Source: Cyanobacteria bacterium FACHB-471 (GTDB lineage Bacteria; Cyanobacteriota; Cyanobacteriia; Elainellales; Elainellaceae). Taken from it: a DNA stretch of 64,000 nt. The stretch is from the NCBI GenBank assembly GCA_014695345.1, contig JACJOC010000087.1, forward strand, positions 62,001 through 126,000. The letters run 5' to 3'. Below the pieces are notes generated by a model. That model had not been told where the DNA came from and searched no databases. It saw only the letters and a list, made by a program, of their open reading frames with translations. Position numbers and translations under genes: made by a program. How positions within the stretch are numbered: position 1 is the first letter of the stretch; every line of letters starts with the position of its first letter. Of the stretch, positions 13,086-41,775 are shown in pieces.

Positions 13086-13691
13086 TTAGTTTGCTGAAGT
13101 ATTGGTCTTGAGCTGAGCGGCTTTCAGCTCAAGCTGCTTTTTTTCGTACTCAAGTTGGTTTTTTTCTTGCTTCAAAGTTTCTTCCAGCTCTAGAATTTGG
13201 TCACGCTGAGCTTTTAGTTCTAACAGGTCTTGAATTTGCTTTTTTTCAAGCTCAAGCTGCTTTTTTTCTCGCTTCAGGTTTTCTTCTAGCTCTTGAATCT
13301 GGTCACGCCGAGCTTCCATTTCTAGAGCACGTCGCCCAAGCTCCTGGCTCTGTAGCGTGAGTGATTGTCGCCACTGTTCGGCCCGCTGTACTTCCTGCTG
13401 CAAAATTTCTGGGGTTACACCCGTTGCTAGATATTGCTGAATGATTTCAGTCAGCCAGTCTGCTGCATCCTGGATGTTTTCAACTTGTCGCAAATCATTC
13501 AGCTGAACTAGTAAAAGTGCCCCTTTACCCAGATCACATCCCTCTGCATAGACAGTATTATCTTCTTCAGAGAAAATTGCCCAGGCATGTTCGGCTTTTT
13601 GGTATGCAAGCAGTTGCAGTTTCGTCTTGCCGACAGCGTCTTTTTCCTGCACCTGAGCCAAATAGAGCATTTCAGCAACAAGATTAACCAA
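13086..13691 (-). CDS. Hypothetical coiled-coil protein
   Basis: 201 residues from a TTG; an ATG at 13670 is an equally possible start. The N-terminal 95 residues form a small globular domain (KLQLLAYQKAEHAWAIFSEED, GALLLVQLND), and residues about 100-195 are a long charged coiled coil rich in Gln, Glu, Lys and Leu. The coil holds an internal near-duplication: RRDQIQELEENLKREKKQLE is followed about 34 residues later by QRDQILELEETLKQEKNQLE. I do not recognise a named family. It is convergent with the GH116 gene, six bases from its stop. Confidence 0.75.
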   Translation of the reverse strand: MVNLVAEMLYLAQVQEKDAVGKTKLQLLAYQKAEHAWAIFSEEDNTVYAEGCDLGKGALLLVQLNDLRQVENIQDAADWLTEIIQQYLATGVTPEILQQEVQRAEQWRQSLTLQSQELGRRALEMEARRDQIQELEENLKREKKQLELEKKQIQDLLELKAQRDQILELEETLKQEKNQLEYEKKQLELKAAQLKTNTSAN

Positions 13692-35040: not shown

Positions 35041-38000
35041 ATGGCTTCCCCGCTACTTCTGAAAGATCTAGCCCTAATATTTAAAGCAGTAGCGGTAGCC
35101 CTGTTTTGGCTCCTACAGACCTGCATCATTTTAGTCAGGGATTTTATTGTGACTCCTCAAAAAGCTCAAATTCAAGCACTGATTAATGACATCGATAGAG
35201 TATTGGGTAAAGCCAGTCCTCGGTTGCCTTGGGTTATGTCCGGAGACGCAACCCAACAACGTCAAGTTTTAGAGCAAACTCGCAACTATTTAATTGCTCT
35301 TCAACAACAGGTGTCTGCGCCAGAATTTGAGCCAAGTAGTACGGGTGGTGATCTAGTTGCTTATGGTGCTTCAGCATCGTTGGGCGTTCAGCCGCAACCA
35401 GGACAGGGCGCAACTGTAGAATCAGCACAGCAAGTTTTGCAGGCTGTCTTGGAGGAGATGAGCTATTTGCGGGCAAACGTGATGCAGCCATTGCGCTCAG
35501 ACATTGAGGAGATGAGCCAGCGGCGAGAGAGCTTAGTTCAGGAGATCAAACAGCTTGAAGCCGAGCGACAGCAGTATGCGTTGCCCCAATCTGATGAGTT
35601 TTTCCAAACCTTAAGGGCACGTTTGCAAGAAGACCTGGCTGGGCAAATGACCCAAATGGTAGCCAGCCTGGAATCTGACAATGCAGAAATGGCTTTGGGA
35701 GCGGCGGATGAGGAGGGCGATTTAGAAGTATCGTCTCAGTCTTTGTTGACCCCCGCTCAACGCCTGAAACAGTTGCAAGCGATCCAGTCTCAGTCAGACC
35801 AACTGATTCTTAAGCTAGACACTACGCTTAGGGTTGTGTTTGACTCGCTCCAGGATAGTGTAAAGAGCTATCAAGAATCTCTAGGGCAGGGGCTTGAGCG
35901 AATGCACGGCTTTGGGCAGCAGGGTGAGGCTATGTTTGCCGCCTTGATGAGCCGCTTGGCTGGAGAATTGGGACGAGGAGCTTCTTCTTACCTTCAATCT
36001 TCAATTGAAACAACTGATTGGGAGCCGCGCCCAACTCTACAAGGAGTCGATCAACCAGTCTCATCTGGAATAACCCCCACCGATACGGTCGAGGACACCC
36101 TACCCCAACCTGGTCAGGTAACTGGAGAAGACCAATTAACTTCAGCAGATCAACTCTCTACTGAGCAGGTGAGTGATGCTGAAATTGACAAGTTATTGAA
36201 TGAACTGAATGAGATCGCTCCTTCCACAGCTTCAGATCAGACTTCGGAGCAAACAAATGTGGAAGACTCAATGTCTGCTTCTGCGGCTTCCGTTGACCCT
36301 GTTACTGATGCCGAACTAGAAGATCTTGACCTGCTGACCTTTGAGCTAGATGATTTGCCCTTGGAGGTTCCCCCTGATGCTGATGACACTACAGCATTCC
36401 AGGTCGGTGAGGACTTTCAACTGACTGAAGCAGGGATATCCACTTTTCCAGAGTCTTCGTCAGCAGAGAATACTACTCTGTTTCAGAACGATCAATTTGA
36501 GTTTCCGTTTGATGAGCCTCCTGCTGCTGATGCCAATGAGACAAATCTCACAGCAGCAGCTTCAGAACCACAGATCGCCGATTTAGATTCAGCCCTCGAT
36601 CTGCTCAATCAGCTTAGCGTTGAACTGCATGAAGAGCCTGGTGAAGACGAGCCAGAGTCAACGCCTGCCATTTTAGAGTCAGCGATTGTTCCCGAACCGC
36701 CTGACGAAGATGAATCTGAATTGCCCCCAACAGATTCGGTGGGGATGTCTGCGGCACCTGTTGCCTCACCCGACAACCTTTACAACCAGCTTGATGATTT
36801 CTATCAGAACATATTCGGTGCAGGTGAGAATGCCGCTGCTGAACAGTCTGAAGCTCGACTAACTGACCTTTCTCCCAGTGAATTAGCGGCTGATTTAGGC
36901 GTTGAGCCGATCGCTACGCCGACTTCCCCAGAGCCAGTGCAAGAAGCAAATATTCCTGGAGATCTGGTGAATGAAAGCAGTGAACAGGCGATCGCTCCCC
37001 TAGACGATGCGTTTCTCAGCAGCGAACTGAGCGATGAACTATTTGGTGGGTTGGGCGATCCATCTGAGTCAGTCGACGATACACTGCTTTCCCTTCCGCC
37101 AGAGGTTCTGGTGGATGAAACTTCAACAGACCAACCCTTAGAAGACTTTCCGCTCGACTTGGGGCTAGAAGATTTTCCACTGACCGATTTGTTGAGTGAA
37201 ACCGATCTGTTGAGTGAAACTGATTTGTTGAGTGAACCAGACAGCATTTCTGCCGAAGTTCCAGAGATGTCTTTGGCAGATGAGGAAATTCTGCCTGTTG
37301 TAGAAGATGAATCTGAGGATGTCACAGAAGAATTATTACCTCCGCCTCAGTCACAACCCACCCCTCCAGATGAAATAGATACGATTGCTAATCTGTCTGA
37401 TTTGCTGGGCTCGACTCCTGCTGAAGTTGAGCCTGAGATACAACCTGAGCTCACGGTTCAGCCTGAGGCGATCGCTCCCGTTGAAGATACCTACATCACG
37501 GCCGCTCCCGATGAAGACTTGCTGGTGACCGAAGAATCTCAAACCGATCCTCGCGTTGATCTTCAGCTCGATCCAGATGTCCTTGAGCAGTTGACGGCTG
37601 ACCTATCTAATCTAGAAGGTTTGCAGGGCAGCAACCTTTCTGCCTTAGAAGCAGATTTAGAAACGACCGAGTCACCAGATTGGACCTTCGTAGACTGGGA
37701 TGAAACAGAACCTGCGGTCGAGCCACCTCCAGCACTAGCTCCAGAGCCACTTTTAGAAGATACAGATTTCCTAGAACCAGAGATCGAGGCAGTTGAACCT
37801 GTCGTTGAGCCTTTACCCGAAGACTCAATTGAGGCGATCGTCTCCCCTGATGTGACTCCCTCTAGTTCTTCTGAAACACCCGACACGATTGACGATCTGT
37901 TTTTCCCCGATGCCTCAGATTTATCGGATTTGCTTTCCTATCAAGAAGCTCTTGCTGCTGAAGTCGCCGATCAGGAAATTAGCTCATTTGAGGACGAGGA

Positions 38001-41000
38001 GCTAGGAGATTTTGGCGATCGAGAATTAGATACCTTTACTAGCGGCTCCTTTACTGGTGGATTGAGTACAGAACTGCCACTGCTGGATCAGAACACGACC
38101 CTGTCCGATCTGTTTAGCCCTGAGCCTGATTTATCCACCGAATCAGATCTAGAACTAGAAGATGATCTGCTAGCTAATGATTTTGAAGATCTAACTTCCC
38201 CAGCTTCGTCTCAACGAGAAACCACCTTAGAAGAACTGTTTGCGATCGCTGAAGTCGATACTGCGGCTCCGCCACCCCCCCCTTCAGAGACAGAAACTTC
38301 TGACGTATTTGACCCGTCACTTGAGCAAAGCTCAGCAGAATCTTCCCAGCCCGACTACGACCTTGCGCTAGAAGACTTGTTTGCGCTACCTCCAGATGAC
38401 CTCGATGCAGCACCCCTTCCCGAGGGAGAATATGTGCCGACCGAGCAGGATGAGCTTCAGTTTACAGAACCCCCAAATTCTTCCTGGACGAGTGAAACAA
38501 CTCTGGAGGGGCTATTCGACCTGCCGGGTTCCGAAACTGCTCAACCCTCAGTTGAAATCCAAGAGCTGACCTTAAATGATTTTGTTCAAGAGGTTGCTGC
38601 TCCGGACGATGTGCCTGTTTCTCCTAGTCCGTCTGATCCGCTCGATGAATCCAGCTCAGCAGTGTTGGACTTTGCGGACTTTGAAAATCTAGAACCAGAG
38701 CAACCAAACATCCAAGAAGAACCTGATACGTTCACCCTGGAAGGACTGGATAGTCTATTTGAAGAGGTGTCTGAAGCAGAATCACAATCTTCCGCAGCAC
38801 CCTCTGATGAGCTTGACCTATCTACTGACTTTGAGCCATCTCCAGAACTGCAGGCTGCTTCTGAAGATTGGACGCTAGAGAATGTTTTTGCTGAACCCGA
38901 ACCGGCCGTCGAGTATGGCTCTGCAACTGATTTAGATTTTGATTTTCTAGAAGCAGTTCCGCCTGTCGAATATGGATCTACAACCGATTTATACACTGCC
39001 GACTTAGACTCATTAGATCTGCCTGACGTAGAGTATGGCTCTGCAACGGATCTGCCATCTTTTGAAGTGGATTCTGAGCCTGAAGCAATTTCCTCTCCTG
39101 ATCTTGATTTTTTGGGAATAGAACCAACAGACCCTGAAGACGCTGAAAAAAAAACTCTAAATTCAGACCTGACGGGGGTATCTGAACCTGATTTAGAGTT
39201 TACGGATGTAAATTTTGCGGATGCAGAGTTTGCAGAACTGACTTCGGACTTAGTCACCGAACCCGAGCTAGAAACAGAGCTCGAAGTCTTGCCAGATGAC
39301 AGTTCAGATGACAACCTAAGTTACCCCAGTGCTATGGAGGAGTCTGCGGAGCTTGAGTTGCCTGAGCTAGAGCCAGAGATAGTTTCTGGAGCAGAACTTG
39401 AGTTACCTGAACTGGAGCCAGAGATAACTCCCGAAGCAGAGACTGAGTTCGCCTTAGAGAATGGTCTGACTAATTCGACAATTGCCTCGGCAGATGACAT
39501 TTCGGCTGAATTGTCAGTCGAAGCGCCTATTGATATTCCTGAAGCTCCTACCGAAATCTCGGAAGAAGAGGGAGTAGACGATTGGAGCGATCGCCTTCCT
39601 GCTGATTTTGATCCATCTGACCTTCCTGCTGCCAGATTGGATGATGCTAACCCCTTCCCTGATATTGCATTGCTTGATCCTGGTTTTGGGCTGTCAGGTT
39701 TGGAGTCAGGGCTGCAAGGTGAAATTCCACCATCTGGAGAATCAGCCGAAGAACCAGTTGCTAAAGACTGGTATCTAGGAATCGATTTTGGCACAACCGG
39801 TATTTCTGCCGTTTTGCTCAACCGCTCAACCTGCGAACTTTACCCCATCTATTGGTCAGAGGCACGACCCCAAGATCAGGGCGGCTTCGTCGCAGATAAG
39901 TCTTTTCGGTTGCCTGCGATCGCCTATCTGTCAACCGGACGCGACACTCCAATAGATCCCAACCTGCCATCCCCAAACCAGGATCAGGCTGCCGTCACCT
40001 CAGTCGCAATTGGCTCTCTTGCCCTTGACCTCAACCAGCGCAATCAGTCTGGCGAAGCAAACTTTGATGCAGATTCTTGGAAGCTATTGCTGCGGGACTT
40101 TAAGCCCTATCTCAGTATTGGCGTTCCCCATTATTCTCCTCAAACATCGAGTTGGGAGCCTGTTTTGCAGTGGTCTGATCAACATCAGCTAGAGATGAGT
40201 TGGCTGCACCAGGCGTTACAAACGCTGTTGGCAACCCTCAGTCATCATCGCTTATCTACTCCCGCTCACTCAGCGCTGAGCTGTGCAGCCGTTGGACTAG
40301 ACGCAGCAACGTTTCAGACTGCCTTACGGCAACTTGCTGGTGTGGTCATGGGCTACCCTGCTAATTGGTCAGATACCTATAGCTTTAACATTCGAGAAGC
40401 AGTACTGGGAGCCCGACTGGTTGCCCATCCAGAGCAGATTTTCTTTATTGAAGATGCGATCGCCACTCTCCTATCGGGACTACGCAGTTCAGATGGTCGA
40501 GCCGTTGTGCTGCCCAACAATCTTTCTCAAAAACCCTACCTCTACAACACCGATTGGCAAGGCAGCACCCTGGTAATTAGCGCTGGGGCAAGTGTGACTG
40601 AGATGGCACTCGTTGACTTGCCTAGCGCTCTGCAAAATCTCACCTACCAAGATTTCACCTTACGCAGCCTTCCCTATGCCGGAAAAGCGCTCGACCAGGA
40701 CATCATTTGCCAACTGTTGTATCCCACCTGGTCACGCCAACCCCGTCGTTCTGACACTGCTTCTGAAGGTTACACGTTTAGCTCAGGACAAACTCCTAAA
40801 TCTCGTGCATTTGTAGATGGCTGGCACTGGCAACCAACCGAATCTAATTCTGAAACCATGACCTGGGCAAGTTTAGAACTAGAAAACTTAACTCTGCCCT
40901 CTGCTGGAGAGCCAGACCCCGTCAACCGACAGCGGCTACAGCAGCGGCTTGAAAGCTTACCCATGGGTCAAAGCCTACTGGACGCTGCAAGATACCTGAA

Positions 41001-41775
41001 ACTCATTTTGCAGCAGCAAGATCGGTTCAATCTAGAATTGGGCGATCAGCAGTGGACGGTGATGCGCCGAGAGTTGGGTAGCCGTGTGCTCCTGCCGTAC
41101 ATTCAGCGGCTAAACCGAGAATTAAATGCTTTGCTGACTCAGAGTGGTGTACCGATTCAATCGATTAATCAAGTGGTTTGTACGGGTGGTACAGCTTCCT
41201 TTGGGGCGATCGCCCGCTGGCTCAGGCAAAAGCTGCCAAATGCCACCATCATTCAAGACACCTACACTAACAGTCGGGCTGGTTCTACCCAGGAAAGCCG
41301 CCTTCCTACCTGTAGCCGAGTCGCGTATGGGCTAGCAACCTTACCTCTTCATCCCCAGGTACTCAACTTACCCCGGCAGCAATACAGCGACTATTTTCTG
41401 TTAATGGAATTGCTCAGAGCATTTCCTGACCAACCCCTCTCTCTCTCTCAAATCATGCAGATGCTAGAACGGCGGGGTATCAATACTCAAGCTTGCCGTT
41501 TGCACATCCTGGCTCTTCTAGAAGGACATCTTCCTCCTGGTTTGGTGCCCACTGAAAAGCACGTTGATTTGCTTGCTCAACAATCCAAGCAAAATCCAGA
41601 CTACCAAATGCTACTGGCGGCTCCATTGTTCCAAAAGCTCGACAGCCAAACCTATCGTCCTAATTACCAGCAGTGGAATCACTTCCGCAGTTATCTCAGC
41701 ACCATTACAGCCAGCACCCACCAAAAGCTGTCAGAGCCTCTCACCGTTGGGCTGAGCGTTTCTACTCAGGAATAA
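35041..41775 (+). CDS. Giant acidic protein with C-terminal Hsp70/actin-like domain
   Basis: 2244 residues. N-terminus: one membrane helix (about 11-36) then coiled coil (about 85-330, QRRESLVQEIKQLEAERQQ). Residues about 340-1570 are strongly acidic, Ser/Thr/Pro-rich and likely disordered, with recurring short motifs: TTLSDLF (1019), TTLEELF (1061), ALEDLF (1109), TTLEGLF (1153), TLEGLDSLF (1232), TLENVF (1278), VEYGS(A/T)TDL at 1290, 1309 and 1330, triple LLSETD at about 717, and tandem ELPELEPEI near 1440. From about 1576 an Hsp70-like ATPase begins: GIDFGTT (phosphate 1), EDAIATLLSGL (connect 1, 1804) and VVCTGGTASFGAIARWL (adenosine, 2045). The phosphate 2 position reads VISAGASVTEM and lacks the usual DxGGGT. 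No family name known to me. Base use matches the neighbours. Confidence 0.85.
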   Translation: MASPLLLKDLALIFKAVAVALFWLLQTCIILVRDFIVTPQKAQIQALINDIDRVLGKASPRLPWVMSGDATQQRQVLEQTRNYLIALQQQVSAPEFEPSSTGGDLVAYGASASLGVQPQPGQGATVESAQQVLQAVLEEMSYLRANVMQPLRSDIEEMSQRRESLVQEIKQLEAERQQYALPQSDEFFQTLRARLQEDLAGQMTQMVASLESDNAEMALGAADEEGDLEVSSQSLLTPAQRLKQLQAIQSQSDQLILKLDTTLRVVFDSLQDSVKSYQESLGQGLERMHGFGQQGEAMFAALMSRLAGELGRGASSYLQSSIETTDWEPRPTLQGVDQPVSSGITPTDTVEDTLPQPGQVTGEDQLTSADQLSTEQVSDAEIDKLLNELNEIAPSTASDQTSEQTNVEDSMSASAASVDPVTDAELEDLDLLTFELDDLPLEVPPDADDTTAFQVGEDFQLTEAGISTFPESSSAENTTLFQNDQFEFPFDEPPAADANETNLTAAASEPQIADLDSALDLLNQLSVELHEEPGEDEPESTPAILESAIVPEPPDEDESELPPTDSVGMSAAPVASPDNLYNQLDDFYQNIFGAGENAAAEQSEARLTDLSPSELAADLGVEPIATPTSPEPVQEANIPGDLVNESSEQAIAPLDDAFLSSELSDELFGGLGDPSESVDDTLLSLPPEVLVDETSTDQPLEDFPLDLGLEDFPLTDLLSETDLLSETDLLSEPDSISAEVPEMSLADEEILPVVEDESEDVTEELLPPPQSQPTPPDEIDTIANLSDLLGSTPAEVEPEIQPELTVQPEAIAPVEDTYITAAPDEDLLVTEESQTDPRVDLQLDPDVLEQLTADLSNLEGLQGSNLSALEADLETTESPDWTFVDWDETEPAVEPPPALAPEPLLEDTDFLEPEIEAVEPVVEPLPEDSIEAIVSPDVTPSSSSETPDTIDDLFFPDASDLSDLLSYQEALAAEVADQEISSFEDEELGDFGDRELDTFTSGSFTGGLSTELPLLDQNTTLSDLFSPEPDLSTESDLELEDDLLANDFEDLTSPASSQRETTLEELFAIAEVDTAAPPPPPSETETSDVFDPSLEQSSAESSQPDYDLALEDLFALPPDDLDAAPLPEGEYVPTEQDELQFTEPPNSSWTSETTLEGLFDLPGSETAQPSVEIQELTLNDFVQEVAAPDDVPVSPSPSDPLDESSSAVLDFADFENLEPEQPNIQEEPDTFTLEGLDSLFEEVSEAESQSSAAPSDELDLSTDFEPSPELQAASEDWTLENVFAEPEPAVEYGSATDLDFDFLEAVPPVEYGSTTDLYTADLDSLDLPDVEYGSATDLPSFEVDSEPEAISSPDLDFLGIEPTDPEDAEKKTLNSDLTGVSEPDLEFTDVNFADAEFAELTSDLVTEPELETELEVLPDDSSDDNLSYPSAMEESAELELPELEPEIVSGAELELPELEPEITPEAETEFALENGLTNSTIASADDISAELSVEAPIDIPEAPTEISEEEGVDDWSDRLPADFDPSDLPAARLDDANPFPDIALLDPGFGLSGLESGLQGEIPPSGESAEEPVAKDWYLGIDFGTTGISAVLLNRSTCELYPIYWSEARPQDQGGFVADKSFRLPAIAYLSTGRDTPIDPNLPSPNQDQAAVTSVAIGSLALDLNQRNQSGEANFDADSWKLLLRDFKPYLSIGVPHYSPQTSSWEPVLQWSDQHQLEMSWLHQALQTLLATLSHHRLSTPAHSALSCAAVGLDAATFQTALRQLAGVVMGYPANWSDTYSFNIREAVLGARLVAHPEQIFFIEDAIATLLSGLRSSDGRAVVLPNNLSQKPYLYNTDWQGSTLVISAGASVTEMALVDLPSALQNLTYQDFTLRSLPYAGKALDQDIICQLLYPTWSRQPRRSDTASEGYTFSSGQTPKSRAFVDGWHWQPTESNSETMTWASLELENLTLPSAGEPDPVNRQRLQQRLESLPMGQSLLDAARYLKLILQQQDRFNLELGDQQWTVMRRELGSRVLLPYIQRLNRELNALLTQSGVPIQSINQVVCTGGTASFGAIARWLRQKLPNATIIQDTYTNSRAGSTQESRLPTCSRVAYGLATLPLHPQVLNLPRQQYSDYFLLMELLRAFPDQPLSLSQIMQMLERRGINTQACRLHILALLEGHLPPGLVPTEKHVDLLAQQSKQNPDYQMLLAAPLFQKLDSQTYRPNYQQWNHFRSYLSTITASTHQKLSEPLTVGLSVSTQE

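Follow-up and report, generated by a model that had tools for sequence, protein, structure and literature searches.

RNA polymerase slippage on a conserved A run is proposed here to let one large cyanobacterial gene make two proteins, a short and a long one, both of which would carry docking motifs; we put the probability of this reading at roughly two in three. The gene lies in the window, i.e., the stretch of 64,000 nucleotides from Cyanobacteria bacterium FACHB-471 that was analysed, and it encodes a large, uncharacterised cyanobacterial protein, which comprises a coiled coil, an acidic linker with short motifs, and a domain that resembles the nucleotide-binding domain (NBD) of Hsp70. Judging from the sequences of its relatives, it is very probable that two proteins arise from this gene, a short one that lacks and a long one that bears the Hsp70-like ATPase part. 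Both the slip and its two products are predictions at this stage, albeit strongly implied by the conservation documented below.

In the proposed mechanism, RNA polymerase would slip on a run of 9 to 11 A's (A9-A11), adding or removing A's, and would thus generate a mixed mRNA population. One mRNA register would be read through to give the long protein with its Hsp70-NBD-like domain, while the other registers would reach a stop soon after the run, producing a short protein that consists of the coiled coil and the motif linker and lacks the ATPase-like domain. As the motif precedes the run, it would be present in both forms. The motif would dock one partner, and the slip ratio would set the share of the docking scaffold that bears the ATPase-like part. 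Since all registers would be represented in the mRNA pool, the length of the genomic run would be free to drift, resulting in a single ORF in the window and, in many relatives, two ORFs that overlap. The chances seem about even for a fuller picture, in which this slippage-controlled gene would be widespread in non-heterocystous cyanobacteria, stuttering would set the ratio of free scaffold to scaffold with an Hsp70-like nucleotide switch, the run would drift through three registers, and several lineages would have resolved the arrangement to a fusion or to overlapping genes.

The gene and the layout of its product

The coordinates of the gene and its features are collected in Table 1. A first-pass annotation, made from the DNA letters, had drawn attention to recurrent short motifs in an acidic region; all of these motifs fall in the mechanically called ORF 35041-41775 (+), and every listed string was found again at its residue in that ORF, the numbering of which (not one based on the GTG) is used for residues throughout. 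The first 36 residues of the ORF are probably untranslated, the true start being the GTG at 35149, which is conserved among orthologues; stops often occur just upstream of the equivalent GTG in the orthologue frames. N-terminal anchoring in the membrane was considered and rejected, as the hydrophobic stretch lies upstream of this GTG, in a part where relatives often have in-frame stops. Translated from the GTG, the protein would lack a membrane helix at its N-terminus.

Table 1 Features of the gene, given as positions in the window
Feature	Position	Strand	Remarks
Whole gene	35149..41775	+	Conserved GTG (mechanical-ORF residue 37) to stop; from orthologue comparison
N-terminal all-helical coiled-coil domain	35149..36075	+	Predicted; AlphaFold2, 31-sequence alignment
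Acidic, proline/serine-rich linker	36076..39762	+	Predicted disorder, from composition
Tandem LLSETD, two copies	37189..37224	+	Residues 717/723
TTLSDLF	38095..38115	+	Residue 1019
TTLEELF	38221..38241	+	Residue 1061
ALEDLF	38365..38382	+	Residue 1109
TTLEGLF	38497..38517	+	Residue 1153
TLEGLDSLF	38734..38760	+	Residue 1232; copy matching the family-wide FT[LI]EG[LM][DE]xLF
TLENVF	38872..38889	+	Residue 1278
VEYGS(A/T)TDL, three copies	38908-38934, 38965-38991, 39028-39054 (block 38908..39054)	+	Residues 1290, 1309, 1330
A9 run	39146..39154	+	Proposed slippage site; in frame; encodes part of E-K-K-T
TAA, +1 frame	39158..39160	+	3 nt past the run; would terminate translation after loss of one A
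TGA, other shifted frame	39183..39185	+	28 nt past the run; would terminate translation after gain of one A
ELPELEPEI, two copies	39355..39426	+	Residues 1439/1454
C-terminal domain, Hsp70 nucleotide-binding fold plus helical tail	39763..41772	+	Predicted structure

The AlphaFold2 model of the N-terminal domain contained helices only (mean pLDDT 72, pTM 0.29), and profile searches with this domain retrieved no confident family match. Identification as GrpE, a J domain or another known protein was rejected, given the absence of a usable profile match and the pTM of 0.29. The linker (residues 346-1574) is acidic, D+E making up 27% of it, whereas Lys occurs just three times and Arg six times; two of these three lysines are encoded by the A9 run.

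The genome has one clear copy of the gene, the second match (E 9.5e-8) spanning 86 positions. In a class-wide sample drawn by software, 188 of 241 genomes matched at E 0.001, although some of the weaker matches may be other proteins of the same fold; 40 of the matched genomes were picked by hand for added loci. The nearest named relative on record is Leptolyngbyaceae cyanobacterium SM1_4_3 (L077). A link to the cell-division protein CyDiv was rejected, since CyDiv, as described in passages of its report (PMC4748335), is a different protein of 197 residues. Literature searches retrieved no paper on the gene or its slippage; for GeneTack (PMC3711429), this statement covers the main text, and the cluster tables may hold an unnamed entry.

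A conserved A run between the motifs and the C-terminal domain

The A9 run is positioned between the motif region and the sequence of the C-terminal domain, within the uninterrupted ORF of the window. The first-pass annotation, which had placed the motifs correctly, overlooked the putative slippage site. The whole genome (7.15 Mb, both strands) has 10 A9 runs, and only one of the other nine lies well inside a coding frame, the rest being at frame edges, antisense or outside long frames. At the same place in relatives the run is A9-A11. For the counts of run, stop, start, motif and register that follow, 9 duplicate loci were dropped beforehand, and further duplicates were dropped for some of them, as they were for the counts of neighbouring genes and of RNA folds. 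A run of nine or more A's occurs at the junction in 62 of 116 loci, as opposed to 4 other sense-strand runs of this length in 1.67 Mb. It was found in all 29 loci of the window's family in which the junction is covered, in 14/14 loci of family f16, and altogether in 41 genera and 15 families, not counting f32. Locus L054 ends short of the junction and contributes nothing here. It is absent from families f13 (0/12) and f24 (0/4), the loci of which are single ORFs, from f21, f23 and f37 (0/1 each), and from two of the three loci of f20. The ATPase domains of these loci use 302 AAA and 296 AAG codons for lysine; since half of the Lys codons are thus AAG, the unbroken A run is not a mere constraint of the peptide.

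A stop follows the run closely. Taking the frame that is +1 to the downstream ORF, 38 of 41 loci have a stop no more than 11 nt after the run, against 8.5 expected; when the loci were collapsed to genera, which was the only correction made for kinship, the count was 38/41 against 8.7 (P about 5e-23). The expected rates were derived from the parts of these genes that follow the run. The other shifted frame was not enriched in stops (10/41 versus 7.6 expected). After 20 loci had been added, the near stop was present in 57 of the 61 run-bearing non-heterocystous loci, the four without it being L045, L070, L072 and L181. Most telling are the uninterrupted genes, which also keep the near stop: 10 of 11 such loci do so, as does the window, the sole miss being L181, at a contig edge. 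Another uninterrupted gene is that of Leptolyngbya FACHB-8 (L080), with an A10 run. We consider this decisive in favour of a programmed function. In the heterocystous loci, a grouping that rests on the organism names of the records, the gene is uninterrupted, the run is often A10 in frame, and the near stop occurs in 2/21 loci (5.6 expected); since the near stop is mostly absent there, slippage may be unused in these organisms.

Split frames, registers and the choice of mechanism

At the run, the gene is split into two frames in 50 loci. The register of the upstream frame (ORF1) relative to the downstream one (ORF2) was determined for 61 loci: 39 are in frame 1, and 11 each are in frames 0 and 2. 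Congeners can differ, as do L178 (A10, frame 1) and L179 (A11, frame 2), or agree, as do the three loci of the window's own genus (the window, L033 and L053; frame 0), L037 and L039 (frame 0), and L040 and L041 (frame 2). Such a spread over every register is what slippage, which would serve all of them, leads one to expect, rather than a fixed -1 shift.

Alternatively, ribosomes could yield these two products through a -1 frameshift on A_AAA_AAA/G, in the manner of Escherichia coli dnaX, an explanation that we consider rather unlikely. A -1 shift would fit the 39 of 61 loci with ORF1 in frame 1, but would be needless in frame 0 and would miss the long product in frame 2, which together make up the other 22 loci. 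Signals that might stimulate such a shift are at most weak. A Shine-Dalgarno (SD)-like sequence lies upstream of the run in 17/62 loci (9.1 expected), and downstream RNA structure is slightly enriched, z falling below -2 in 8/62 loci versus 6/186 control windows, although downstream folding averages a z of only -0.41 (70 nt from +5) or -0.57. In the window itself a strong stem is predicted directly after the run (39146-39240, z -3.0), but it is not kept in the sister loci L033 or L053.

Homopolymers of 9-11 bases are error-prone, and the sister metagenome-assembled genomes (MAGs) L033 and L053 have in common a G deletion in the ATPase domain, in addition to other breaks; hence, the split could in principle be due to sequencing error or to decay of a gene, the protein always being one continuous chain. 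This is very improbable, as the run and its stop recur in so many genera and families, congeners agree on the frame in several genera, and split frames are also seen in single-contig assemblies (L041, L051, L068, L178, L182 and L185). Furthermore, sequencing errors would not place a +1-frame stop within 11 nt.

Just as improbable is that the two parts are separately translated proteins, with the start of ORF2 coupled to the stop of ORF1, as the ATG that overlaps the stop in L075, and that near or overlapping the ORF1 stop in the runless loci L076 and L206, might suggest, since the ORF2 of the split loci has no ATG, GTG or TTG before the conserved domain in 6/50, no ATG in 29/50 and no SD-equipped start in 36/50, and since coupling explains neither the A run nor the stop that is kept in uninterrupted genes.

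Slippage on the A run is thus preferred for the run-bearing loci, and three putative solutions are found among the lineages, namely, a slip site, a permanent fusion, and overlapping genes. In family f20, L205 has an A9 run with a stop 3 nt on, and L076 and L206 have two overlapping genes; apparently, the slip site and the two-gene arrangement have interconverted there.

Relation to known slippage systems

The closest parallel is dnaX of Thermus thermophilus, the model case, in which transcriptional slippage on an A9 run yields tau and gamma, according to passages of two reports (PMC1088944, PMC5009743). Like that gene, the one in the window has an A9 run within a continuous ORF, nearby stops in its shifted frames, and a predicted short and long product; however, it is another gene that encodes another protein, its run (A9-A11) and register (all three) vary by species, and its slippage is a prediction. 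In E. coli dnaX, a -1 ribosomal frameshift occurs on A_AAA_AAG, as given in passages of PMC5009743. This gene shares with it the short and long products and a stop right after the A-rich shift site, but has no consistent SD or stem stimulators, and a -1 shift would be of no use in the registers of 22/61 loci. A third parallel is offered by IS elements with A runs, including those of Nostoc sp. PCC 7120, in which runs of 8 to 10 A's join two ORFs (passages of PMC1088944): there too an A run of variable length joins two ORFs in a cyanobacterium, although ours is a chromosomal gene with one clear copy and not a transposase. The parts of PMC1088944 used here also indicate that, for a large share of bacterial genomes, selection against slippage can be seen at a length of nine A's; those of PMC5009743 name few cases of conserved programmed slippage in ordinary chromosomal genes, viz., dnaX and some secretion genes.

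If the proposal is true, it would add to these a case of slippage in at least 15 family-level groups, in a protein family without an assigned function, and automatic annotation may be calling the gene two genes, or a broken one, in many genomes. The loci would also provide a natural series of run lengths and registers for measuring slippage in cyanobacteria.

Conservation of the linker motifs

In the window, the pattern L[EDSN].[LVI]F was observed 6 times against 0.48 expected from shuffles of linker residues 346-1574 (P 0.00005), and LE.LF 3 times against 0.11 when the same residues were shuffled (P 0.00035); the excess held when shuffling was confined to blocks of 60 residues. As the patterns were composed after the list of motifs had been seen, these P values are optimistic, and it is the recurrence of the motif elsewhere, in other genomes, that provides an independent test.

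Such recurrence was indeed found. The motif counts excluded loci with an upstream reading frame of less than 500 codons, and the run-bearing loci were divided into a named set, mostly heterocystous, and the 53 loci outside it, which include the matchless L197 and L200 of family f32. In these 53, the core matched 129 times, whereas shuffling of their linkers led to an expectation of 22.1, and 31 of the 53 had the full FTLEGLDxLF-type motif, of the form [LIVF][ED].[LMI][DE].[LI]F. There are 1-5 copies per linker, five of them in L180, and the consensus of the full motif is FTLEGMDDLF or FTLEGLDxLF. The TLEGLDSLF copy represents the conserved core, and FT[LI]EG[LM][DE]xLF appears as a recurrent element of the same linker in many non-heterocystous cyanobacteria. 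The 59 loci without the A run had 36 core matches against 23.0 expected, with full forms in 2/59. The named set, with 22 run-bearing loci, had no full motif, its four core matches being all in L142 (Oscillatoria sp. Prado101), and the full motif was likewise not found in the heterocystous and f13 linkers. Thus, the full motif and the slip site largely co-occur by lineage (31/53 with the run versus 2/59 without), which shared ancestry can explain.

The motifs also persist where their flanks have drifted, as the first-pass annotation had anticipated for docking sites. Against the two sister loci, L053 and L033, 33/36 and 39/43 residues of the LExLF-type motifs were identical, compared to 245/464 and 258/483 of the rest; in other words, identity exceeds 90% in the motifs and is about 53% in the linker outside them. 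Conservation across many relatives is nevertheless restricted to this type. The VEYGS repeats are kept in L053 and L033 (27/27 and 26/27 identical), but the full VEYGSxTDL pattern was absent from all scanned loci outside the genus, and for this reason we regard VEYGSxTDL as a repeat of the lineage. The LLSETD and ELPELEPEI tandems were not found in any other locus scanned and are known from the window only.

These three resemble lineage-specific repeats, and the full motif is missing from the heterocystous and f13 linkers; the LExLF strings might themselves have arisen merely from a composition rich in leucine and acidic residues, or through expansion of local repeats, and not be docking sites. 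This is improbable in view of the excess of the core over shuffles of the very same linkers (129 versus 22.1 in 53 loci), the presence of the full eight-residue motif in 31/53 loci, and the identity above 90% in motif residues as opposed to near 53% in the flanks.

We favour docking: probably, or at least plausibly, the motif is a helix through which one specific partner binds. When eight genomes were scanned with a strict DNA pattern for TLEGxDxLF-like sequences, four gave matches, 9 in total, all of them at this gene, and absence of the motif from other genes in the eight genomes, within the reach of the strict pattern, is what docking of one partner would predict; the pattern misses looser copies, since the other four genomes gave no match. 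The idea that the motif is a docking code common to other cell proteins was rejected, as the strict pattern matched nothing else in the eight genomes. A short motif peptide, e.g., FTLEGLDSLFEEV, could be used as bait for the partner.

A second segment of the linker, DDWSDRLPADFDPSDLPAARLDDANPFPDIALLDPGFGL (window residues ~1513-1551), which is located just before the ATPase domain, is far better kept in the sisters than other parts of the linker.

The C-terminal domain

The folds of the domains are predictions. The model of the C-terminal domain (pLDDT 85) has the Hsp70 nucleotide-binding fold and is similar to the DnaK NBD (7rax), with Z 22.1 and rmsd 2.9 over 349 residues, but sequence identity to the Hsp70/DnaK NBD is only 16%. 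Pfam searches with 34 members retrieved no HSP70 family at E 0.001, and the best HSP70-type NCBIfam match of the window protein was HscA at 0.029. There are also differences in structure. The phosphate-2 loop motif of Hsp70s is GGG; here it is AGA (A1 consensus, by eye). The C-terminal tail is helical in the model, in which no counterpart of the substrate-binding beta-sandwich of Hsp70 is seen; beyond residue 530, DSSP assigned helices and two short strands to the tail, which was modelled within the domain and not alone.

Similarity to PilM, the actin-like protein of the type IV pilus, was also found, 7 of the 34 members matching PF11104 at E <=0.001 (best 5.4e-5), and profile matches to PilM in the PDB had E values of 0.011-0.012. 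However, the window protein scored 15.4 bits against a cut-off of 27, and the structure ranking was led by Hsp70 NBDs.

Gene neighbourhood and additional observations

Among 151 loci, the gene is preceded by a divergent Crp-type regulator in 92, a membrane protein in 83 and a CobT-like gene in 74, e.g., in L098 and L105; all family names of the neighbours were assigned by eye. This block is not found upstream of the gene in the window. The neighbourhood was considered and set aside as a clue to function, since it indicated no clear function and its upstream block is missing in the window. A sugar-transferase family is found downstream in 41 loci, including the window.

The deletion shared by the sister MAGs L033 and L053 changes GGGG to GGG opposite window position ~41200 and breaks the frame of the ATPase domain; together with the further gene breaks in these two, it may reflect decay, error or a second unusual site.

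Two other homopolymer regions were observed. At 13138-13267, the window has four T7 runs with similar flanks, a short array of repeats in the vicinity of the ORF 13086-13691. Elsewhere in the genome, the one other A9 run that lies well inside a coding frame (L158; G000:C27:17546-17554, minus strand) is on the coding strand, ~257 codons into an open frame of 760 codons, and is a further candidate slippage site.
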